A stretch of DNA of 64,000 nucleotides from Paucimonas lemoignei (GTDB taxonomy: Bacteria; Pseudomonadota; Gammaproteobacteria; Pseudomonadales; Pseudomonadaceae): contig LS483371.1 in assembly GCA_900475325.1 (NCBI GenBank), positions 3,224,001 to 3,288,000 of the forward strand, given 5' to 3'. Under the pieces are notes generated by a model, which was given only the letters and a program-made list of their open reading frames with translations, was not told the origin of the DNA and ran no database searches. The position numbers and the translations under genes are program-made. Shown piece after piece: positions 552-31,971 of this stretch (the first letter of the stretch is position 1; every line of letters starts with the position of its first letter).

Positions 552-1613
552 TCAGGGAATCAGACGGCGTTGGCGCAGCTCGGCGAACACGTCAAAAAAG
601 GCACGGTCGCTGGCTTTGTAGTCGGTAAAGCCCATCAGGCGGCTTTTCGACATGTCGGTGACCACTTCAATCGGGCGCCCCAGGTCCGCGTCGGTGTGCC
701 AGGGTGAAATCAGCTTGTCGATGTCCGGTTCTGCCAGGTTGTGCTGTTCAACCAGCTTCTGCCAGGCCTGCGCATCGTCGGCCATTTGCTCGGCAAGCGG
801 CGCATCCGACTCGGGGAACGGCGCGGGCTCGATATCAAACCAGCCCGCGATCTGCTCCCACATCCAGCTCCAGCGAAATATATCGCCGTTGGTCACGTTG
901 AAGGCCTGATTGGCCGCTGCCGGAGTGGTTGAAGCCCAGATTTGCTGGCGGGCGACGATATCGGCGTCGCTCATGTCGGTGAGGCTGTCCCACTGGACCC
1001 GCGACCCGGGGAAGCGAAACGGCCGGCCGGTGGCTTTGCAGATCGACGCATAGACCGCCAGGGTAGTGGCCATATTCATGGCATTGCCCACGGCAACCCC
1101 GGTGATGGTGTGCGGGCGATGCACGCTCCAGGTGAAGCCATCACGTTTGGCTGCGGCAAAGACTTCGTCTTCCTGGGCGTAGTAGAAGTTCTCCACGTCC
1201 AGCCTGCCTTGCTCTTCGCGGAACGGCGTCTTGGGCAGCGTGCCTTTGCCGTAGGCCTCGAAGGGACCCAGGTAATGTTTGAGCCCGGTGACCAACGCCA
1301 CATGCCGGACGCTGCCCTTGGTACTCAGAACATCGAGGACGTTGCGCACCATCGCGGCATTGACCCGAATGTTTTCCGCTTCCGTGGCCTGACGCGACCA
1401 GGTGGTGATGTACACATGGGTGGGAGCACTGTCAGCCAGTGCAGCCTTCAGCGAGTCGGTGTCGAGCAAGTCAGCGACCACCGGGGTCACGCCCTCCTGC
1501 TCCACCGGCTTGCGCGCCAGCCCCGCCACTTGCCAGCCCTGATCCACCAGGCTGCGAGCCGTTGCGCTGCCGATGATTCCGCTGGCACCGATGACCAATG
1601 CGTTGTCACTCAT
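552..1613 (-). CDS. SDR family oxidoreductase (PRISE-like), 353 aa
   Basis: NAD(P)-dependent short-chain dehydrogenase related to the progesterone 5-beta-reductase/iridoid synthase (PRISE) group of enone reductases. Visible features are the N-terminal nucleotide-binding motif VIGASGIIGSA, the TGLKHYLGPFE segment, and NFYYAQEDEVF, which carries the family's active-site Tyr. The ATG at 1613 is chosen because it has AGAGGAG upstream and begins directly with MSDNALVIGASG; the longer open frame upstream only translates REPIN sequence. The substrate is unknown; the family reduces activated C=C bonds. The small 43-aa gene follows 11 nt downstream. Confidence 0.85.
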   Translation of the reverse strand: MSDNALVIGASGIIGSATARSLVDQGWQVAGLARKPVEQEGVTPVVADLLDTDSLKAALADSAPTHVYITTWSRQATEAENIRVNAAMVRNVLDVLSTKGSVRHVALVTGLKHYLGPFEAYGKGTLPKTPFREEQGRLDVENFYYAQEDEVFAAAKRDGFTWSVHRPHTITGVAVGNAMNMATTLAVYASICKATGRPFRFPGSRVQWDSLTDMSDADIVARQQIWASTTPAAANQAFNVTNGDIFRWSWMWEQIAGWFDIEPAPFPESDAPLAEQMADDAQAWQKLVEQHNLAEPDIDKLISPWHTDADLGRPIEVVTDMSKSRLMGFTDYKASDRAFFDVFAELRQRRLIP

Positions 1614-1729
1614 CCCAAGTCTCCTCTGAATCGTTAGCGATTCCGGTTCGACAGGATCATCGGCTGATCGTGCAGAGAAATTGCCGAATACGGGAAAGTG
1701 TGTGCCTGAAAGACCACGTAACCGAACCC

Positions 1730-1819
1730 GTGGGAGCGAATTCATTCGCGAAGAGGACGGTACATTCGATAGAAATGCATCGTCTAAACATCCGTCTTCG
1801 CGAATGAATTCGCTCCCAC
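1730..1819. repeat. REPIN (GTGGGAGC type), 90 bp
   Basis: Two inverted REP arms, GTGGGAGCGAATTCATTCGC and its reverse complement, flank a loop with GGTACATTCGATAG. The loop is homologous, in reverse orientation, to that of the REPIN at 45328-45417. The gene-free stretch 1614-2138 holds this REPIN, the one at 1918-2007 and the gcd terminator; otherwise I see only the presumed promoter of the reductase near 1620-1720. Confidence 0.9.
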
Positions 1820-1917
1820 AGGTTATTCGCCGCCTTTGAACTCCTGCCCCCAACCGTAGAAGCAGCTTTAGCCGCGAAGGGCAGCAAAGGCGATCTGCCT
1901 GACACGCCGCAGCCCAC

Positions 1918-2007
1918 GTGGGAGCGAATTCATTCGCGAAGAGGACGGTACAGTCGATGCATCTTTATGAATCTTTACACCGCCTTCGCGAATGAATTCG
2001 CTCCCAC
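1918..2007. repeat. REPIN (GTGGGAGC type), 90 bp
   Basis: The same 90-bp size and arms as the copy 190 bp to the left. The sequence just outside (CTGACACGCCGCAGCCCAC) recurs, inverted, next to the REPINs at 45.4-45.7 kb, so the mobile or copied unit may include flanking sequence. Confidence 0.9.
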
Positions 2008-2073
2008 AGGTCCTGGGTGAACCGAGGTTGCAATGTGTTTCTAAAAGCCCTCCTGGCAACATTCAATCGCGCA

Positions 2074-2116
2074 CAAAAAAAACCCGCTGCCATCCTCACA
2101 GGACAGCAGCGGGTTT
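2074..2116 (-). terminator. Rho-independent terminator of gcd
   Basis: Read on the minus strand, AAACCCGCTGCTGTCC is followed by a short loop and the complementary arm GGCAGCGGGTTT, then by a run of eight T. It lies 20-60 nt past the gcd stop codon. Confidence 0.9.
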
Positions 2117-2138
2117 CAGGTGTTACAGGGCTGAACGC

Positions 2139-4562
2139 TTACTTACTATCAGGCAACGCGTAGGCGATGACGTAGTCACCACGATCCGGCGACTGACGAC
2201 CGCCACCGGCAGTAATCACCACGTACTGCTTGCCGGTTTTCGGCGACACGAAGGTCATCGGCCCGCCCTGGCTGCCCACCGGCAAGCGGGCTTTCCAGGC
2301 CTCTTCGCCATTGGCCGAGTTGAAGGCGCGCAGGTAGTAATCCTGGGTACCGGCAATGAAGATCAAGCCACCTTGAGTCGACAGCGTGCCACCCAGGGTC
2401 GGCATGCCGATAGGCAGCGGCAGGTGCATCTTCACGCCCAGCGGACCGGTGTCCTGCACTGTGCCGACGGGCACTTGCCAGGCGACTTTCTGGGTCTTCA
2501 TGTCAATCGCAGTCAGGGTACCGAACGGCGGCGCCTGGCATGGGATGCCGGCAATCGACAGGAAGCGGTTCTTGTTCACCGCGTAAGGCGTGCCCTTGAG
2601 CGGAACAGCGCCCATGCCGGTGTTCAACGCTTCGCCGCCGGACGAGGCCTTGGCGTCTTTCTGCTGCGGCACCATCTGGATCCACAGGCCCAGACGCATG
2701 TCGTTGACGAAGATGAAACCGTGTACCGGGTCAGTGGAGATGCTGCCCCAGTTCATGCCGCCCAGCGAACCCGGGAAGCTCAGCGACTTGTCTGTCCCCG
2801 GCGCGGTGTACAGGCCTTCGTAACGCATTTGCTTGAACGAGATGCGGCACAGCATCTGGTCAAACGGCGTAGCGCCCCACATGTCCGATTCGGTCATGTG
2901 TCGGGTGCCGATCTGCGGCATACCGGTGGACAGCGGCTGAGTCAGCGAGTACGGCTCGTTGGGGATGTTGGCGGCGTTGACGGGCACGTCTTCGACTTTG
3001 GTCAACGGCTTGCCGGTGGCGCGGTCGAGGACGAAGATTTGACCGGCCTTGGTGCCGATCACCACGGCTGGCACCTTGCTGCCGTCAGCCTGGGTGAAGT
3101 CCATCAAGGTGGGCTGCATGGGCAGGTCGAAGTCCCACAGGTCGTTATGAACGGTCTGGTAGACCCACTTCTCTTCGCCCGTGGTGGCGTTCAAGGCCAG
3201 CACCGAAGCACCGTATTTGTGATCCAGTGCGGTACGTTCCACGCCGTAAATGTCCGTGGACGAACTGCCCATCGGCAGGAAGATCGTGTTCATCGCCGGG
3301 TCATAGGACATCGGCGCCCAGCTGTTCGGCGTACTGCGCACATAAGTGCTGTCGGCAGCCGGGGCATTTTTGTCATCGGGGTTGCCGGGGTCGAATGCCC
3401 AGCGCATGGCACCGGTGACCACGTCAAAACCACGGATCACGCCACCGGGCATGTCCGCCTGGACGTTATCCGCCACCCGCCCGCCAACCACTACGGTGCT
3501 GCCCGCCATCAGCGGCGCGGACGACAGTTGGTAGTAGGAGTCCGGAACATTCCCCAAACCGGCTTTCAGATCCACCTGACCCTTGTTGCCGAAACCCTGG
3601 CAGAACTCGCCCGTATCGGCATCCACGGCAATCAGGCGCGCATCGATGGTGTTGCTCAGCAAGCGACGCTGGCAATTGGCGCCAGCGGGCACCGCCACGG
3701 CGGTTGCCGGGGTGCTGCCGTCCACCGGTTGGGCGAGCGGCGCCGTGGCGTCGAAGTACGCCAGGCCACGGCAACGCTGCCAGACTTTACTCTGGGCATT
3801 GATCTCGTTTTTCCACAGCTGTTTGCCGGTGTCGGCATCCAGGGCAATGATGTTGTTGTGCGGGGTGCAGATGAACACCTTGTCGCCGACCTGCAGCGGG
3901 GTGGTCTGGTCTTCAGCGCCGTTGCCGTCACTGATCGCCACATCACCGGTCTGGTAGGTCCAGGCGGGGACCAGGCTGGCGACGTTACTGCGGTTGATCT
4001 GGTCCAGCGCGGCAAAGCGGTTGCCGCCCTCGTCATTGCCGTAATGTGCCCAATTCTTCTGCGCATTGCCTGGCTCGACTTTGCTCAAGCCCGGGCCATC
4101 GCCCGTCGGCGCCACCGATGCATGGGGGATGAACATGCCATACACCCCGGCAACCACCGCAATCGCGAGCAGGCCGCTCAGCGCGTACCCGCCTCGCCCG
4201 CCGACCAGGCCGTTGTTCTTGCGCAACGTCGGGTAGACCAGCGCCACCACCAGGCTCAGGATGCCCAGCGCAAACAGGCGCGAAATCTGCGGCCAGAAAT
4301 TAAGCCCCGCATCGGCCAACGCCCAGATCACCGAAAGCAACATGACCGCCGCGAACAGCCAGGCACCCGCCAGACGCTGTTTGAACAGCAGCACCGCCGA
4401 CACCAGCATGCCCAGGCCCGCGAGCAGGAAGTACACGCTGCCGCCCAGCATTGTGAGGTAGCCGCCACCGGCCATGAACAGTAATCCAAATACCAGCACG
4501 CCCAGCGCAGCGACCCAAACGGGCCAGCGGCTGACGGATGCCGAAGGGAGAGACTTAGTCAT
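2139..4562 (-). CDS. gcd: Membrane-bound PQQ-dependent glucose dehydrogenase, 807 aa
   Basis: Periplasmic oxidation of glucose to gluconolactone with PQQ, passing electrons to ubiquinone. The first ~140 residues form about five membrane segments (AALGVLVFGLLFMAGGG onward), followed by an eight-bladed PQQ propeller with many tryptophan-docking-type repeats and the C-terminal GDYVIAYALPDSK typical of Gcd. Length matches family members (~800 aa). The family also includes quinate/shikimate dehydrogenases, which cannot be excluded by eye, though the C-terminal half (GNLG-like, PVPFNMGMPMLGG-like segments) resembles Gcd. Monocistronic, with its own terminator. The start ATG at 4562 has only a weak upstream AGGA. 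Confidence 0.85.
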   Translation of the reverse strand: MTKSLPSASVSRWPVWVAALGVLVFGLLFMAGGGYLTMLGGSVYFLLAGLGMLVSAVLLFKQRLAGAWLFAAVMLLSVIWALADAGLNFWPQISRLFALGILSLVVALVYPTLRKNNGLVGGRGGYALSGLLAIAVVAGVYGMFIPHASVAPTGDGPGLSKVEPGNAQKNWAHYGNDEGGNRFAALDQINRSNVASLVPAWTYQTGDVAISDGNGAEDQTTPLQVGDKVFICTPHNNIIALDADTGKQLWKNEINAQSKVWQRCRGLAYFDATAPLAQPVDGSTPATAVAVPAGANCQRRLLSNTIDARLIAVDADTGEFCQGFGNKGQVDLKAGLGNVPDSYYQLSSAPLMAGSTVVVGGRVADNVQADMPGGVIRGFDVVTGAMRWAFDPGNPDDKNAPAADSTYVRSTPNSWAPMSYDPAMNTIFLPMGSSSTDIYGVERTALDHKYGASVLALNATTGEEKWVYQTVHNDLWDFDLPMQPTLMDFTQADGSKVPAVVIGTKAGQIFVLDRATGKPLTKVEDVPVNAANIPNEPYSLTQPLSTGMPQIGTRHMTESDMWGATPFDQMLCRISFKQMRYEGLYTAPGTDKSLSFPGSLGGMNWGSISTDPVHGFIFVNDMRLGLWIQMVPQQKDAKASSGGEALNTGMGAVPLKGTPYAVNKNRFLSIAGIPCQAPPFGTLTAIDMKTQKVAWQVPVGTVQDTGPLGVKMHLPLPIGMPTLGGTLSTQGGLIFIAGTQDYYLRAFNSANGEEAWKARLPVGSQGGPMTFVSPKTGKQYVVITAGGGRQSPDRGDYVIAYALPDSK

Positions 4563-6372: not shown

Positions 6373-8574
6373 TCAGAAATTCACACTGGCGCTGAGCCTG
6401 GCGGTCAAGGGCGCACCCTGAAACAGGTAGCCGTCGCCAATGTACTCTCCGGCATCGCGCCAGTAGCGTTTGTCGAACAGGTTGTCGATGCTCAGACGAA
6501 ATACCGTCTGATAGCCGTCGATACGGGTGGTATAGCGACTGCCCGCATTGAAGATTGCATAGTCGCTGACCTTGACGCTGCCTTCGCGGTTCGCCGCTTT
6601 GCTGGCGCTGTACTGCACTCCACCGAGCATCGCCAGCCCGTCCACCCACGGCAGGCTGTAATCGGCATACAGGCTGGCGCGCAGTTTGGGCACGTTCAAG
6701 GATTGATGCCCTTCGTATTCGGGCGTGCCGCTGTCGGTGACCCGCGCCCGAATAGCCGCCACGCTGGCAGACAGCTGCAACCGCGAAGTGGCCCAGCCAT
6801 TGGCGGACACCTCCAGGCCGGTGTTTTTCTGCTCACCGCTCTGGACATAGGTGAAGGTGCCGTCCGTCTGAGGTTGAGAGTATTGGTGCGCCTGGCGAGT
6901 CTGGAACAGCGCCGCAGCCAGGCTGATGCGTTGCCAGTCGTATTTGACCCCGGCTTCGATCTGCCTGGACACCGTCGGCGGCAGGATCTCGAATGCATTG
7001 TTGGTGAACCAGGCCGCTTCACCGCCCAGCGACAAGCCCTTGCTGTAGCTGGTGTACACCGAGAGATTTTCCACCGGTTTGTAAATCAGCGCGGCCTGGG
7101 GCAAAAACACGTAGCGCTGGGTGTGGCGCGTGGTGTCGCCACCGCTGTCGAAGGTTTTCTCATCGAGACGCACTTCACGGCCACCCAGCACGGTTTGCCA
7201 CTGCTCGTTGAAGCTGATCCGGTCGCTGGCGAACAGCCCGTACTGGCGGCTGTCCAGGCGTCGATAGGACGGGCCGGACTCCCCAGGGAACGGCGCGAAG
7301 TCCAACGGTTGCGCATCAAGATTGCTACTGCTGATCCATTCGTTGATGTCATCGCGCTTGTCGATCACCCGGCGCAGCGCGCTGGTGCCGAAGGTCAGCT
7401 CATGCTTGAGCGAACCGGTGTTGAAAGTCCCGGCCAGCGCCGCCTGCACTTCATCGTTGCGGCGGGTGTCGTCGGGGCTGCGGAAATCGTAGATGTCGTA
7501 GTCGCCTTCGGCGCTGAAGTGATTGGGCACCGCCGTCGAAGCGCAACTGCTGGCCCCGTAGCAACCCCAGGCAAATGCGCTGTAGTCGTCGACCACCACT
7601 TTGCTGCGCGAGGCGCTGAGCGTGCCCTTCCAGGCGTCGCTGAACCGGTATTCGAACTTGCCGTTGACGTTGAGGGAGTCGATGCCGACCGGCTTGGCCC
7701 AGCTCTGGTGGCCCAGTTTGGTTTTAGGCGAAGCGTGATGAGGCAGTTCCCTGCCACCGAGCAATTGATAACCCGGCGATGAACGCTGTTCTTTGTTCTG
7801 GTACTCCACGTCCAGTTGCAGCAGCGCATCGGGGTTGATGGTCCAGTCAAACGCCAGCGAGGCGAAATCACGCTGGCCGTCGGCATGTTCGACGTAGGAA
7901 TTGATGTCTTCGTGAGCGAAATTGGCCTGCACACCGAATTGACGCTCGCTGCCGAAGAAGCCACCGACGTCGGTGGCCACATAGCCACTGCCCCTATCGT
8001 CGGTCGCCAGGGTCACCGAGCGCACGTCTTCCGGGCGCTTGGTGACGTAGTTGATCAGGCCACCCGGCTCGGCAATGCCACTCTGCAAGCCCGCCAGGCC
8101 TTTGAGGACTTCCACCTGCTGCTTGTTTTCCAGCGCGACGTTCTGCTCGCCAGTGATGGTGCGGCCGTTGATTTTGTAACTGCTAGCAGAGTTGAGAGTA
8201 AAACCACGAATCGCGAAGTTTTCGTAATAGCCCACCGGCGCGTAGCTTTCACCCACCGATGCGTCATTGCGCAGCACTTCACTGAGCAGACGCGCCTGCT
8301 GATCCTTGATCAATTGCTCGTTGATCACGGTAATCGACGCGGGGGTATCGAGCAGCGGCGCAGGCTCAAAACCACCCACGGCCGCTTGGTTGCCCTGATA
8401 ACCCTGATCCTGTTCGCCGACCACCGTGGTTGCATCCAGCTGAATACGGGTGGCATCAGCCGCCCACGCCGTGCCGCCCGCCCCGCAGGCCATAGCAATA
8501 CCGAGCCGAAATACATTGGGCGCGAAACGGTTGGCAACCGACGACAGCCTGGATGCCCGATAAAACATGACCAT
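6373..8574 (-). CDS. TonB-dependent siderophore-type receptor, 733 aa
   Basis: Outer-membrane beta-barrel receptor. The signal peptide ends near AWAADA, followed by the plug domain (DTPASITVINEQLIKDQQAR, GLAGLQSGIAEPGGLINYVTKRP) and a 22-strand barrel ending in the canonical terminal Phe (SASVNF). The plug resembles FhuA/FoxA-type siderophore receptors. The start ATG at 8574 has AGGAG 5 nt upstream; the second ATG is too far from it. No obvious Fur box is visible in the 150 bp upstream. Translationally close to the pnuC-like gene, so the ligand could be a cofactor precursor rather than a ferric siderophore. Confidence 0.85.
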   Translation of the reverse strand: MVMFYRASRLSSVANRFAPNVFRLGIAMACGAGGTAWAADATRIQLDATTVVGEQDQGYQGNQAAVGGFEPAPLLDTPASITVINEQLIKDQQARLLSEVLRNDASVGESYAPVGYYENFAIRGFTLNSASSYKINGRTITGEQNVALENKQQVEVLKGLAGLQSGIAEPGGLINYVTKRPEDVRSVTLATDDRGSGYVATDVGGFFGSERQFGVQANFAHEDINSYVEHADGQRDFASLAFDWTINPDALLQLDVEYQNKEQRSSPGYQLLGGRELPHHASPKTKLGHQSWAKPVGIDSLNVNGKFEYRFSDAWKGTLSASRSKVVVDDYSAFAWGCYGASSCASTAVPNHFSAEGDYDIYDFRSPDDTRRNDEVQAALAGTFNTGSLKHELTFGTSALRRVIDKRDDINEWISSSNLDAQPLDFAPFPGESGPSYRRLDSRQYGLFASDRISFNEQWQTVLGGREVRLDEKTFDSGGDTTRHTQRYVFLPQAALIYKPVENLSVYTSYSKGLSLGGEAAWFTNNAFEILPPTVSRQIEAGVKYDWQRISLAAALFQTRQAHQYSQPQTDGTFTYVQSGEQKNTGLEVSANGWATSRLQLSASVAAIRARVTDSGTPEYEGHQSLNVPKLRASLYADYSLPWVDGLAMLGGVQYSASKAANREGSVKVSDYAIFNAGSRYTTRIDGYQTVFRLSIDNLFDKRYWRDAGEYIGDGYLFQGAPLTARLSASVNF

Positions 8575-26584: not shown

Positions 26585-28258
26585 TCAAATCGCAATCCGC
26601 AACAGCGCCACCGCTCTGGAGAACTCATCCAGTTGATCCAGATAAAGCCGACCTGGCACGTCGGCCAGCAAGCGGCGGGTATAGCCGTGGGTAGGCGACT
26701 GGAACACCTGCTCGCTGCTGCCCTTCTCCACCACCTTGCCCGCCTGCATGACCACCACCTGATCGGAGATTTGCCGCACCACGGCCAGGTCATGGGAGAT
26801 AAACAGATAGCTCAGGCCCAATCGCTGTTGCAGGCCGGCGAGCAACGCAAGAATCTGGGTCTGCACCGACGCATCCAGTGCTGACAGCGGCTCATCGAGC
26901 ACCACCAGTTCCGGCTCCAGCGCCAGGGCTCTGGCAATGGCGACGCGCTGGCGTTGCCCGCCCGACAGCTGCCCCGGCCTGCTATGCAACAAGCGCGATG
27001 GCAACTCGACCTGCTCAAGCAGCTCGGCGGCCCGGGCGTTGCGCCAGGCTTTGTCGCCTACGGCGTAGGCTTGCAAAGGCTCGGTGATGATCTGTTCCAG
27101 GGTAAAGCGCGGGTCCAGCGAGGCGTAAGGGTTCTGGTAGACCACCTGAATCCTGCGTCGCAACGACTGCCAGTCGCGCCGCGAATATTGGCTGATGTCT
27201 TCGCCATCAAACAACACCCGGCCCGCATCGAGTTTTTCCAGGCCGACGATCAGCCGTGCAGTGGTGGATTTCCCCGACCCCGACTCCCCCACCAGGCCCG
27301 TGGTGCCATGCCGCACCACCGAGAACGAAACCCCATCCACGGCAGGCAAGCCCGGATTACGCCAGCTAGAAAAATCCTTATGCAGTTGCTCCACCACCAG
27401 CAACGGCTGGTCGGCGACGAAACCTGCTCTGCGTACTTTGGGCTCAGCGGGCTGGACCACGGTCGCCAACGCCGGGACGGTCTTCAGCAATTGCCGGGTA
27501 TACGCATGCTGCGGGCGATGGAATATTTGACCAGTGCCACCGCTTTCGACAATCCGCCCGCGATGCATCACCAGTACCCGATCAGCGCGGTCCAACGCCA
27601 CCCCCAGATCGTGAGTGATCAGCAATACCGCCGTGCCCCGCTCCCGCGCAAGGGCCTGCAATCGATCCAGAATCTGCCGCTGCACGCCAAGGTCCAGCGC
27701 ACTGGTGGGTTCATCGGCAATGATCAGCGCCGGGTTGTTGGCCAGGGCGATTGCAATCAACACCCGCTGACGCATCCCTCCGGACAGCTGATGAGGAAAG
27801 CTGCGCCCGACCCGCTCCACGTGCTTGAGGCCCACCTCTTCGAGCAGCGCCGAGGCTCGCAATCGGGCTGCGGCGCGCGGCACGCCGTGGATGGTCATCG
27901 CTTCCTGCAACTGGGCATCGATGCGTTTCACCGGATCCAGCGACAGACCCGGATCCTGAGGCACAAAGCCCAGCACCTTGCCACGCAGGCTTCGCCAATG
28001 GCGCTCAGTGGCAGCGATGTGTTCAACCCCATTGAGCAAAATACTGCCGGACTCGATGCGGCCATTGGCGGCCAGCAAGCCCACCAGCGCCGCTGCGGTG
28101 GTGGATTTCCCCGAGCCAGACTCACCGACGACTGCGACGATTTCGCCGGGGTACAAGGCAAAGTCGATCTGGCTGACGCCGTCCACTCGACCGTCCTGGG
28201 TCTGATAACCAATGCACAAACCCTCGACCTTCAAGACTGCGTTACGGGCATCGCTCAT
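26585..28258 (-). CDS. Dual-domain peptide-type ABC ATPase, 557 aa
   Basis: DppD- and DppF-like ATPases fused in one chain. First Walker A GESGSGKST at 45-53, second at about 322-330. Signatures LSGGMRQRVLIAIAL and LSGGQRQRVAIARAL; Walker B LIIADEPTSALD and LVVLDEPLSALD. Fused ATPases of this kind serve dipeptide, opine or glutathione-type importers. Last gene of the operon, overlapping permease 28255 by 4 nt. Confidence 0.9.
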   Translation of the reverse strand: MSDARNAVLKVEGLCIGYQTQDGRVDGVSQIDFALYPGEIVAVVGESGSGKSTTAAALVGLLAANGRIESGSILLNGVEHIAATERHWRSLRGKVLGFVPQDPGLSLDPVKRIDAQLQEAMTIHGVPRAAARLRASALLEEVGLKHVERVGRSFPHQLSGGMRQRVLIAIALANNPALIIADEPTSALDLGVQRQILDRLQALARERGTAVLLITHDLGVALDRADRVLVMHRGRIVESGGTGQIFHRPQHAYTRQLLKTVPALATVVQPAEPKVRRAGFVADQPLLVVEQLHKDFSSWRNPGLPAVDGVSFSVVRHGTTGLVGESGSGKSTTARLIVGLEKLDAGRVLFDGEDISQYSRRDWQSLRRRIQVVYQNPYASLDPRFTLEQIITEPLQAYAVGDKAWRNARAAELLEQVELPSRLLHSRPGQLSGGQRQRVAIARALALEPELVVLDEPLSALDASVQTQILALLAGLQQRLGLSYLFISHDLAVVRQISDQVVVMQAGKVVEKGSSEQVFQSPTHGYTRRLLADVPGRLYLDQLDEFSRAVALLRIAI

Positions 28259-29142
28259 GATTTGTGTCCCTGTAGATCCTGCACCGCCCGCGCCAGCTGG
28301 TTAGCCGCCAGCACCACCGAAGCCACTACCAGACCCGGCAGCGTCGTGTACCACCAGGCCGCGACCATGTAATTGCGCCCTTCGGAAATCAACAAGCCCC
28401 ACTCCGGCTGCGGCGGTGGTGCGCCAAAGCCGAGAAAGCTCAAGGCCGAGACCGACAGCACGGCGCTGCCGAATTCCAGCGCCGCCAGGGCAAGTACCGG
28501 CCCGGCCGCGTGGGCCAGAATATGCCGCCGGATGATGGTCCATGGGCCTACACCACAGGACACCGCCGCCTCGACAAACACCGATGTTCGCCAGCGCAAC
28601 ACCTCACCACGCACCAGCCGGGCAAAGGTTGCCACCGACGACAGCCCCACCGCCAAGGCGATGTTCAGGGTGCCGAAACCCAGTACGGTAATAATCGCCA
28701 TGGCCAGCAACAACGAGGGGATGGCCATCAACACTTCCACCACACGCATGAGCAACGCATCCACCAGGCCACCGAAATAACCGGCAATAACCCCCAGCAA
28801 GATGCCCACCAGCAGGGCAATCGCAACCGCCAGCGCCGTGGCCTGCAAGGAAATCGCCGAGCCATGCACGGCCCGGCTGTAGAGATCACGGCCCAATTGG
28901 TCAGTGCCAAACCAATGGGTAGCGCTCGGCCCTTGCAGCGCCTGGCTTGGCACACCCAGCAAAGGGTCGTAATGGCTGAACACCCCTGGCCACAACGCCC
29001 AGGCCAGGACTAGCAGCAACACCGCGACACCCAGCGGCAGCAGCGGACGCCGGCGCAGCAGCACGCGGGTTTTATGGCTCCAGCGAGGGCGATTGAACGG
29101 GCTGTTATTCAGCGCCAGATCTTCATTCAGTGCGACAGTCAT
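28255..29142 (-). CDS. DppC-like ABC permease, 295 aa
   Basis: Peptide/nickel-type inner-membrane permease. An N-terminal cytoplasmic region leads to the first helix LPLGVAVLLLVLAWALWPGV, with the periplasmic HWFGTDQLGRDLYSR motif typical of DppC/OppC and an EAA-like loop FVEAAVSCGVGPWTIIRRHI. Overlaps the preceding fusion gene as ATGA. Confidence 0.92.
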   Translation of the reverse strand: MTVALNEDLALNNSPFNRPRWSHKTRVLLRRRPLLPLGVAVLLLVLAWALWPGVFSHYDPLLGVPSQALQGPSATHWFGTDQLGRDLYSRAVHGSAISLQATALAVAIALLVGILLGVIAGYFGGLVDALLMRVVEVLMAIPSLLLAMAIITVLGFGTLNIALAVGLSSVATFARLVRGEVLRWRTSVFVEAAVSCGVGPWTIIRRHILAHAAGPVLALAALEFGSAVLSVSALSFLGFGAPPPQPEWGLLISEGRNYMVAAWWYTTLPGLVVASVVLAANQLARAVQDLQGHKS

Positions 29143-31850
29143 TTGCCAGCCCCTCCCTGCATACGCGGATCGAGCAAGGGATACAGCAGATCCACCAGCA
29201 AATTCACGCCGATGAAAATCACCGCTGCCAGCACCACCACGCCCTGCACCAACGGAATGTCCTGGCCACTCACCGCCCCTTGCGCAAGACGGCCGACGCC
29301 CTCCCGGGAAAACACCGTCTCGGTCACCACCGAACCGGCCAGCAGGTTGCCGACGATCACTCCCGACAGGCTGAGTAACGGGATCGCAGCGTTATGCAGC
29401 AGATGCACAAACAACAGGCGACTCGGGCTGAGCCCCTTGGCGATCAGCACCTCCACAAATGGCTGAGCACGCACCGCTTGCAGGGAGCGGGTCAGCACCT
29501 GAGCAATCACTGCCGCCGTGGGAATGGCCAGGGTCATTGCAGGCAGCACCAACGCGCTGAAACCCTGATTACCCATGGCCGGAAACCAGTGCCAGGTAAA
29601 CGAGAAGCCTTGCAGCAGAAGCAACCCGATCCAGAAGGTCGGTAATGACACCGCCACCGACGGGATACCCAGCAAGCCATTGCGCAGCCAGTCGCGCTTG
29701 ACCAGGCTGGCGGTCAGCGCCAGGGCAATGCCCGCCAGCAAGGCAAAGCCAAGGGCCAAAAAGGTCAGCGCTGCGGTGGCGGGCAGCGCTTGAATCAAGG
29801 CTTGCACCACCGGCTCACCGCTTTGTATCGAGCTGCCGAAATCCAGGTGCAACGCCTTCCACAAGGCAATGCCGTACTGCACCGGCAATGGTTGATCCAG
29901 ATGATATTCAGCGCGCAGGGCATTGATCTGCACTTGATCCACCGCCGAGGGCTCGCCCTGTTGATTGAGCATGATGCTGACCGGATCGCTGGGCAGCGCA
30001 TACAGAATCACGAACGACACGCTGAACGCCGCCCATAACACCAGCAACGACTGGCCGATGCGGCTGAGCAGGTAGAACGAAGCTTGTCTGTAGCGCCTAC
30101 CGTTTCTTGTGTGGGAGCGAGCTTGCTCGCGAAGGGGCAGGAACATCCGGCCTACCTTTCGGGTCTGCAAATACGCCTTCGCAAGCAAGCTTGCTCCCAC
30201 GGGGTCTCCGGTTGCCATCTTGCCGCGTTGTGTCAGTGCCATTTGTTTCTCCTGCCGCTGCAACCAGGTATCAAAAAACTGCAACCGCGACGACGCCTCG
30301 AAATGCAGCCCGTGCACTTGTTTGCCGTGGGCCAGCACTGTGGCCAGTTCGATCAGGGGGATGGCGTGGGCTTCGCGCAGCAGGATGTCGCTGGCCTGAT
30401 CGATCAGTTGCTGCCGTTGCGGGCCGTCGAGGGTGGCGGCGGCATCACGCAGCACGTCGTCAACAAGCCCCGGCTGGCGGCGGTTGTAGTTGCGCCCCGG
30501 TGATTGATAAACCGTGCGGATCACATCCGGGTCAGCGCGGGTCAGGTTGAAAAAGGTCAGGTGCATGTCGCCGCTTGCCTGCAAGGCGGATACCTGGCTG
30601 ATCGTGGATTTGTTCAGCCGCAGGTCAACGCCCACCTGACGCCACTGCTGCTGGACCAGTTCAAGAATCGGCGCGTTCTGCCAGTAACTCAGCTGCAGCG
30701 CCAGACGCTTGCCGTCGCGCACGCGAATGCCATCGGTACCGACTTGCCAGCCCGCGTCATCCAACAGTTTGCGCGCACCATCCGGGTCGAAAGCCAGCAA
30801 CGGGGACAGATCCCGATAGAACGGCGTGCTGCTGGCCAACAGCGCGGTGGCCGGTTTCTGGTAACGGGAAATGATGCTGCGCAGCTGCTCCCGGTCGATG
30901 GCTTTGCTCAAGGCCTGGCGCACTTTCACGTCGCTGTACAGCGGGTCGGTTTCGTCAGGCGTCAGGTTGTAGACCACGCCGGGGTTGGCCCGGGCCAGTA
31001 ACGGCACACCTTGGCTTTCCAAGACCTGTTCGTTCTGCGCCACCACGCCGGTGTCCACATCGATCTGCCCCGATAACAAGCTGCCCAGGCGTACGCCAGA
31101 TTCCGGCACGATCACGAACTCAATGCCCTCCAGCCAGGCCTTGCCCTGATGACTGGCCAGGGATGATGGCCAGTTATAGGCCTCGTGGCGCGCCAACTGC
31201 ACCCGTTGGTTATGCACGAATGACTTCAGCACAAAAGGCCCGCTGCCCAGCAGATTGCCCTGACAGCGCTCGGCGGATGGCAACGCTAGTGTCGACGCTG
31301 CCAGCAGGCCGAGGCTCATGGTCGAGGTGGCCTGCAGAAACTGCGCGTTGGACTGCCCGAACTCAATCACCACCGTTTTCGCGTCTGGCGTCTCGATGGC
31401 TTTCAGCCCCGCCAGATAGGTCGAGCCCAGGATCGAGCGTGCGCCGAGGGTGATGATGTTTTCGAAGTTGGCCTTGACGGCCGCTGCATCCAGCGCGCTG
31501 CCATCGCTGAATTTCACCCCCTCGCGCAGATAGAAGGTGAAGCGCCTGGAATCGGCATCCACCTCCCAGCGGGTGGCGAGCCAAGGGACGATTTCGCCGG
31601 TTTTCGGGTCTTGGTCAGTGAGGGAATCCACCACCTGACGGCCCACATTGAGCGCGGTGTTATTGCCCGCCTGTTGCGGGTCGATGCAATTGGGGTCGCC
31701 ATCCAGCGCGACTTTGAGGGTGCCGCCGGAGACTGGAGTGGCCGCGGCCTTGTTCGCTGTCTCAGCGGTTTTATCACCGCAGGCGGCCAGGCTGACTGCG
31801 ATGCATAGCAGGCAAAGCCGGGAGAGTTTTAACGGAGTATTCAAGGTCAT
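29139..31850 (-). CDS. Peptide-type binding lipoprotein fused in frame to DppB-like permease, 903 codons
   Basis: Residues 1-536 are a family 5 extracellular solute-binding protein (lipobox LAAC; GGTLKVALDGDPNCIDPQQA). Residues from ~590 are a DppB-like permease (YALPSDPVSIMLN; ALRAEYHLDQPLPVQYG; EAA loop VEVLIAKGLSPSRLLFV). Between them a 90-bp REPIN encodes residues 551-580, with no stop anywhere. An internal ATG at 30242 (residue 537) has AGGAG 6 nt upstream and would give a 367-residue permease, or 337 without the REPIN, the normal DppB size. A secreted lipoprotein fused before a permease whose N-terminus should be cytoplasmic conflicts in topology, so internal initiation is likely needed for function. 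Could otherwise be a damaged operon. Confidence 0.8.
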   Translation of the reverse strand: MTLNTPLKLSRLCLLCIAVSLAACGDKTAETANKAAATPVSGGTLKVALDGDPNCIDPQQAGNNTALNVGRQVVDSLTDQDPKTGEIVPWLATRWEVDADSRRFTFYLREGVKFSDGSALDAAAVKANFENIITLGARSILGSTYLAGLKAIETPDAKTVVIEFGQSNAQFLQATSTMSLGLLAASTLALPSAERCQGNLLGSGPFVLKSFVHNQRVQLARHEAYNWPSSLASHQGKAWLEGIEFVIVPESGVRLGSLLSGQIDVDTGVVAQNEQVLESQGVPLLARANPGVVYNLTPDETDPLYSDVKVRQALSKAIDREQLRSIISRYQKPATALLASSTPFYRDLSPLLAFDPDGARKLLDDAGWQVGTDGIRVRDGKRLALQLSYWQNAPILELVQQQWRQVGVDLRLNKSTISQVSALQASGDMHLTFFNLTRADPDVIRTVYQSPGRNYNRRQPGLVDDVLRDAAATLDGPQRQQLIDQASDILLREAHAIPLIELATVLAHGKQVHGLHFEASSRLQFFDTWLQRQEKQMALTQRGKMATGDPVGASLLAKAYLQTRKVGRMFLPLREQARSHTRNGRRYRQASFYLLSRIGQSLLVLWAAFSVSFVILYALPSDPVSIMLNQQGEPSAVDQVQINALRAEYHLDQPLPVQYGIALWKALHLDFGSSIQSGEPVVQALIQALPATAALTFLALGFALLAGIALALTASLVKRDWLRNGLLGIPSVAVSLPTFWIGLLLLQGFSFTWHWFPAMGNQGFSALVLPAMTLAIPTAAVIAQVLTRSLQAVRAQPFVEVLIAKGLSPSRLLFVHLLHNAAIPLLSLSGVIVGNLLAGSVVTETVFSREGVGRLAQGAVSGQDIPLVQGVVVLAAVIFIGVNLLVDLLYPLLDPRMQGGAGK
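30111..30200. repeat. REPIN inside the ABC fusion gene, 90 bp
   Basis: Arms GTGGGAGCGAGCTTGCTCGC and GCAAGCAAGCTTGCTCCCAC. Exactly 30 codons, translated as residues 551-580 of the fused frame. A TAG lies in another frame 12-14 nt beyond it (30097-30099). Confidence 0.92.
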
Positions 31851-31880
31851 GGGCGCAATTCTGAATTAGAACGAAATTTC

Positions 31881-31954
31881 TGTAGGAGCTGCCGCAGGCT
31901 GCGAATCGCGATGTGCCTGATACTCCGCTTTCGCAGCCTTCGGCAGCTCCTACA
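31881..31954. repeat. REPIN (TGTAGGAGC type)
   Basis: Arms TGTAGGAGCTGCCGCAGGCT and its near complement. It fills the 121-bp gap between the flavin monooxygenase and the ABC fusion gene and may attenuate or stabilise segments of one long transcript. Confidence 0.9.
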
Positions 31955-31971
31955 GTGAGGATGTGCGTTTG

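Follow-up and report, generated by a model that had tools for sequence, protein, structure and literature searches.

A binding lipoprotein and a DppB-like permease share one reading frame with a REPIN near their junction in Paucimonas lemoignei

We analysed a stretch of 64,000 nucleotides (nt) from Paucimonas lemoignei (assembly GCA_900475325.1, contig LS483371.1, positions 3,224,001 to 3,288,000 of the forward strand; hereafter the window, in whose coordinates positions are given). On its minus strand, the binding lipoprotein and the permease of an importer are joined in a single reading frame that contains a REPIN, an inverted pair of repetitive extragenic palindromic (REP) sequences with a spacer. 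The first-pass annotation of this DNA had described a normal binding protein and a DppB-like permease in one stop-free frame, with a 90-bp REPIN coding for residues 551-580. The list of open reading frames (ORFs) and the Pfam search agreed with the former, and the exact length and span of the REPIN were reproduced. The parts of the locus are as follows.

29139..31850, minus strand: frame of 903 codons with an ATG start, joining binding lipoprotein and permease (ORF list, Pfam)
30255..31850, minus strand: binding-protein part, family 5, residues 1-532 (Pfam), complete judging by relatives
30111..30200, minus strand: 90-bp REPIN, codons 551-580, at the site of the relatives' permease start region (copy search, alignments)
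29139..30074, minus strand: permease core of DppB/OppB fold, from residue 593 (YLLSR) to the stop (Pfam, fold model, structure search)

Within the 903-residue product, Pfam assigned residues 86-444 to SBP_bac_5 (PF00496; E 2e-69; score 234.9 bits, cut-off 32.4), residues 593-696 to BPD_transp_1_N (PF19300; E 6.3e-7) and residues 706-898 to BPD_transp_1 (PF00528; E 1.6e-27), the latter two also over their cut-offs. The N-terminus of the binding protein has a hydrophobic stretch at residues 5-25 ending in LAAC (21-24), which we take, by eye, to be lipobox-like and thus a putative lipoprotein signal. The permease core comprises six hydrophobic stretches once overlaps are merged. With no stop ahead of the permease, the binding protein has no end of its own here. 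The boundary first drawn after residue 536 had to be moved to the equivalent of residue 532, where the nearest relatives end, while the continuity of the frame was borne out.

The relatives comprised 13 Pseudomonas loci and further ones from searches of 298 and 398 genomes (20 of the 398 matched, including the window's own), and a search of 57 genomes gave no further relative besides one, G022. In total, 43 relative loci were compared (L010-L019, L038-L050 and L094-L113), and removal of 14 with duplicate DNA left 29 distinct ones. A stop separates binding protein and permease in all 29, and the fused frame occurs in none (0/29); for L040, where the tblastn match overran the stop, the stop was seen directly in the DNA. 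This alignment with relatives, which the first-pass annotation had proposed as a check, thus bore out its suggestion that the genes had formerly been separate. In the closest relative, L039, whose two halves are 95.5% and 97.7% identical to those of the window, the stop is followed by 126 nt ahead of the permease ATG. Measured from the stop to the codon before YLLSR, the two genes of 22 of the 29 relatives either share a 4-base ATGA overlap or lie at most 73 nt apart. The spacing is at least 152 nt in the other seven (L011, L012 and L038-L042), where palindromes are found that are only short in L011 and L041; these were judged by eye and by fold, with no chance control. The spacer of L042 carries a REPIN of the window's family. 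In this locus (P. syringae GR12-2, ~7600-8000), the 24 nt with which the binding-protein gene ends, stop included, are present twice, and the two repeats flank a REPIN-like palindrome of another kind, after which the REPIN of the window's family follows. In L040 (P. viridiflava p8.G8, ~7620-8390) the spacer is filled by five tandem REPIN-like units of another family.

The protein database searches, made against 5.8 billion proteins, gave no fused homologue among the 120 listed of 523 matches, the listed ones being binding proteins of 504-571 residues. Likewise, of 3203 permease matches, the 120 listed (308-362 residues) all lack a REPIN-coded tail. REPIN-like 5-mers occurred in 8 of the 240 listed proteins, as single words and never in an N-terminal tail. 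By sequence comparison, the fusion is specific to the window genome among the genomes examined.

Alignment with the nearest relatives located what differs at the junction.

30252..30254, minus strand: codon 533, a glutamine codon where L038-L042 have the stop (alignment with relatives)
30201..30254, minus strand: codons 533-550, 54 nt, of which the first ~25 align with the spacer 3′ of the binding-protein gene in L038 and less well with that of L039
30097..30099, minus strand: TAG in another frame just past the REPIN, as first annotated (confirmed in the sequence)

The site of the missing stop lies 51 nt 5′ of the REPIN. No second copy of the stretch of codons 533-550 was found in the window's own genome. 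On the other side, the REPIN is followed by 36 nt that align with the relatives' permease reading over their final ~15. The hairpin, the permease ribosome site, the start codon and the ~12 first permease codons of the relatives have no counterpart in the window, where the REPIN stands instead. In L038 and L039, the spacer is stop-free in the same frame, and the stop of the binding-protein gene is the sole barrier between the two genes. We rejected this open spacer as a sign of selection for read-through, since shuffled versions of the 126-nt spacers ahead of the ATG were likewise open in 559 of 2000 cases for L038 and 376 of 2000 for L039. The idea, also raised at first, that the REPIN itself had fused the genes did not survive: because the lost stop lies upstream of the REPIN, insertion of the REPIN alone did not fuse them, and the L038 and L039 spacers are already open in frame. 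As read from these alignments, the fusion goes with the loss of the stop plus the exchange of the permease start region for a REPIN.

The REPIN belongs to a large family. A search of the window's own genome with the 903-codon query gave 68 matches, namely 66 REPIN matches, the locus itself and one match to the permease part; with 40 of 420 first-look candidates scored, these matches may not show the family in full. For counting we used the window copy and the near-full copies fetched for 39 of the 67 other matches. The 28 left out were short, came from the other strand of a copy that was in the set, were the permease-part match, or were three near-full copies in two clusters. The 39 other near-full copies align across both arms and vary in the centre. 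For the 120-nt stretch with the window's REPIN, a fold of -56.2 kcal/mol was predicted, with no shuffle control. The element thus has the inverted pair of REP arms, the spacer, the high copy number and the predicted hairpin by which REPINs are described in the available text of PMC3116915 (PLoS Genet 2011). We had considered its open frame as a sign of selection, and dropped this candidate: the three forward frames are stop-free in 25, 33 and 26 of the 39 other copies, so an open REPIN frame at this locus is not special. Unlike the open REPIN frame, the missing stop between the two genes is an unusual feature of the window.

An in-frame REPIN is not unique to this locus in the genome either, since a gene for a pyridoxal phosphate-dependent enzyme (L062, 1958830-1962922 of the own genome; ORF 1325-2356, plus strand, 343 residues) also carries a member of this REPIN family in its frame. 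The product resembles 1-aminocyclopropane-1-carboxylate deaminase/D-cysteine desulfhydrase, and the REPIN adds ~30 residues between two conserved stretches. Judged by eye, the ORFs over REPINs in L082, L091 and L059/L069 look like antisense shadow ORFs or ORFs of tandem REPIN clusters rather than real genes.

A direct fusion of the permease to an exported lipoprotein conflicts with the topology predicted for the permease. The net charge is +6 in the 30 residues preceding the first permease helix and -3 in the 30 following it, a bias that favours a cytoplasmic start of this helix, whereas the fusion would require the reverse orientation. According to the available text of PMC12136057, DppB consists of six helices, the region between transmembrane helices TM1 and TM2 being in the periplasm; from this we infer a cytoplasmic N-terminus. 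As predictions, charge bias and DppB topology both point to the clash that the first-pass annotation had pointed out.

A topologically normal permease could come from an internal start, and two in-frame ATGs scored well for this.

30249..30253, minus strand: AGGAG, Shine-Dalgarno-like, before the ATG at 30242 (duplex energy -7.4)
30240..30242, minus strand: in-frame ATG, codon 537, which would give a permease of 367 residues with a 56-residue tail before YLLSR (start scan)
30151..30159, minus strand: AAAGGTAGG, Shine-Dalgarno-like, within the REPIN (duplex energy -7.8)
30144..30146, minus strand: in-frame ATG in the REPIN, codon 569, which would give a permease of 335 residues with a 24-residue tail (start scan)

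The ATG at 30242, preceded by AGGAG and AAACAA, had been pointed out at first and was confirmed in the sequence, while the ATG at 30146 was new to the present analysis. Past its first ATG, the frame contains nine more, of which codons 569 (-7.8) and 537 (-7.4) had the best pairing, the next one reaching -2.8; in the window, 58 of 1813 ATGs reached -7.4, and the permease starts of five relatives paired at -3.6 to -9.1. The REPIN ATG sits exactly where the nearest relatives start, 24 codons before YLLSR: the permease tail has 24 residues in L038, L039 and L040, as from codon 569, and 27 in L041 and L042. The 56-residue tail from codon 537 is longer than that of all 38 aligned homologues (38 of the 120 listed matches; longest tail, 38 residues). 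An AlphaFold2 model of the 367-residue product had a mean predicted local distance difference test score (pLDDT) of 85.0, with blocks of 51-53 over residues 11-40, which are mostly REPIN-coded. The top eight Foldseek matches of this model were DppB/OppB-type chains. The ATG at 30242 was also considered as the former permease start and rejected on moderate evidence, its DNA aligning with the L038 3′ spacer in a short, gapped alignment; lying in spacer-like DNA, it has a good ribosome site that appears to have arisen anew or by chance rather than to be ancestral.

In a comparison with L039, the ratio of nonsynonymous to synonymous rates (dN/dS) came to 0.061 in the binding half and 0.049 in the permease half of the long frame. 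The two genes downstream of it, which encode the second permease and the ATPase of the same importer, gave 0.030 and 0.047, respectively.

28255..29142, minus strand: second permease, DppC-like, with a 4-base overlap with the long frame (ORF list, domain search)
26585..28258, minus strand: double ATPase subunit of the same importer (ORF list, domain search)

Both halves of the long frame thus bear the mark of purifying selection. Changes were assigned to branches only where all outgroups present agree, and the nonsynonymous to synonymous counts were 5:24 for the binding half and 3:9 for the permease half on the window branch, and 6:14 and 2:8, respectively, on the L039 branch. Ratios and counts show that constraint reaches into the recent past; they do not speak to function after the fusion.

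Further features of the surroundings were noted. The NCBIfam matches of the long frame and of the second permease, to nickel and peptide importers, all stayed below their cut-offs; the ATPase was above the cut-off for several models of nickel, opine and dipeptide importers. Upstream of the long frame lie genes for an NtaA/DmoA-type monooxygenase and a TonB-receptor-like protein. The start of the binding protein at 31848-31850 showed no Shine-Dalgarno pairing (duplex energy +0.2), and the true start, or its control, may differ from this position. Just 5′ of it, at 31880-31955, lies a palindrome, CTGTAGGAGCTGCC...GGCAGCTCCTACAG, which resembles the palindrome in the L038 and L039 spacers.

We consider it somewhat probable that the single frame arose through a lost stop together with a REPIN at the permease start region, and that the permease is internally initiated at the ATG at 30242 or 30146; it is the topological conflict of the fusion that favours such initiation. 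Ribosomes starting at 31850 would make the lipoprotein-permease fusion. Its signal peptide would take the binding domain to the periplasm, forcing the first permease helix the wrong way round, and the product would probably be, at best, a membrane-tethered binding protein. Only an internal start would give a permease of normal topology, and its basic, partly REPIN-coded N-terminal tail would then stay in the cytoplasm. Given the topology and the start scores, the internally initiated product already envisaged in the first-pass annotation appears to be a natural way out. For the binding protein there is no other stop, so every copy made would carry the linker unless a protease cuts it.

Several points weigh against this reading. 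The binding protein itself has no second route of release, and the junction may contain a sequencing or assembly error. The signature of selection may mostly predate the fusion, and an older signal with such small branch counts fits a recent loss of function as well. When GTG and TTG are admitted, there are 91 in-frame candidate starts, among which GTG codon 246 (-9.8) beats both ATGs, while GTG codon 551 reaches -6.6 and TTG codon 555 reaches -6.5; the two ATGs therefore do not stand out by pairing alone. Folding prediction leaves the region of the REPIN ATG partly paired (unpaired probability 0.06-0.99 between -14 and +3). Of the ATG at 30242, two bases are mostly paired (0.25 and 0.23), though the GGAG before it is open (0.75-0.98). 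Finally, an ATG lies within 20 nt of the right arm in 29 of the 40 REPIN copies and the window copy pairs most strongly (-7.8; next -4.4), a rank that was found only after looking and serves as a lead only. This lead suggests a narrower possibility, which we regard as tentative and rather unlikely, namely that the REPIN was taken over as the translation start of the permease, with AAAGGTAGG and the ATG in its central loop. A selfish repeat at the former gene start would then supply a new one. With the upstream stop gone, ribosomes running through would open the hairpin, and permease synthesis would become coupled to that of the binding protein.

The fusion could also be a recent lesion, in which joining of the genes and the replacement by the REPIN break the transporter on its way to loss and leave neither a functional permease nor free binding protein in amounts of use to the cell. 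Such a lesion would fit an arrangement seen in 0/29 relatives and in none of the listed database matches, as well as the unfavourable topology predicted for the fusion and the lack of any counterpart of the relatives' permease ribosome site and start. Yet the two halves are intact and conserved, as are the second permease and the ATPase (dN/dS of 0.030-0.061 against L039), the window branch shows no clear excess of nonsynonymous changes, and two well-placed internal ATGs are present; we take a lesion to be rather unlikely. If there was an error of sequencing or assembly, a stop would in reality separate the halves, and only the REPIN-altered permease start would be genuine. A small change would decide whether the first gene stops, and the listed matches do not include the fused protein, in a database that may not contain this strain. 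However, the assembly consists of one contig of 5.92 Mb with a completeness rating of 100%, and the difference exceeds one base, spacer, hairpin and start region differing over ~150 nt; we regard an error as improbable. Most doubtful of all appears a genuine one-piece importer in which the binding domain is tethered to the permease as in GlnPQ. The continuous frame with two complete and conserved domains would suit it, and GlnPQ offers a precedent of binding domains linked N-terminally to a permease (available text of PMC8025302). Nevertheless, a DppB-type permease is expected to start in the cytoplasm, and the one in the window has a strongly basic segment before helix 1, so that an exported domain would invert it, and the fusion occurs in no relative examined (0/29).

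The locus resembles several known systems in part. 'REP-decorated' proteins, as described in the accessible part of PMC3733652 (BMC Genomics 2013), contain intragenic REP elements that lie in frame and supply amino acids, and Rickettsia palindromic elements (RPE) are named there alongside them. The palindromic repeat of the window likewise adds residues in phase, within a frame homologous to real genes; it differs in lying at the seam of two operon genes that are separate elsewhere, where it may supply a start codon. The same text notes that N-terminal REP cases may often be non-coding, with translation possibly starting downstream. Nearly all REPs of SBW25 lie outside genes, with just 14 of 1,067 of the commonest 16-mers overlapping genes according to the available part of PMC3116915, whereas the window copy is intragenic. 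The window shares with GlnPQ, as far as the text of PMC8025302 was available, a single frame in which the binding domain precedes the permease; unlike GlnPQ, which is an established importer of another kind, it has a DppB-type permease with a predicted cytoplasmic N-terminus, and its fusion is known from one genome. Stem-loops between binding-protein and permease genes, as reported in the accessible texts for malE-malF (PMC5927463) and for Clostridia (PMC9045158), keep the binding protein in excess. Palindromes occupy this place in the seven of 29 relatives with more than 150 nt from stop to permease core, whereas the window palindrome lies inside an open frame, so that read-through ribosomes would open it. 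The literature searched, which covered subscription journals thinly, gave no report of a REPIN joining a binding protein to a permease. In-frame REPs and tethered binding domains are both known; their combination is new, and may be a lesion that arose recently in a single strain.

REPINs are regarded as elements found almost exclusively outside genes. The one described here lies where the permease gene of the relatives starts, at a junction that has also lost its only separating stop. If the permease is still made, the locus would be a concrete case of a mobile palindrome that supplies or encloses a translation start, and it would show an operon with a normally excess binding protein sliding into a fused gene. 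If the permease is not made, the locus would provide a clean snapshot of the loss of an importer.

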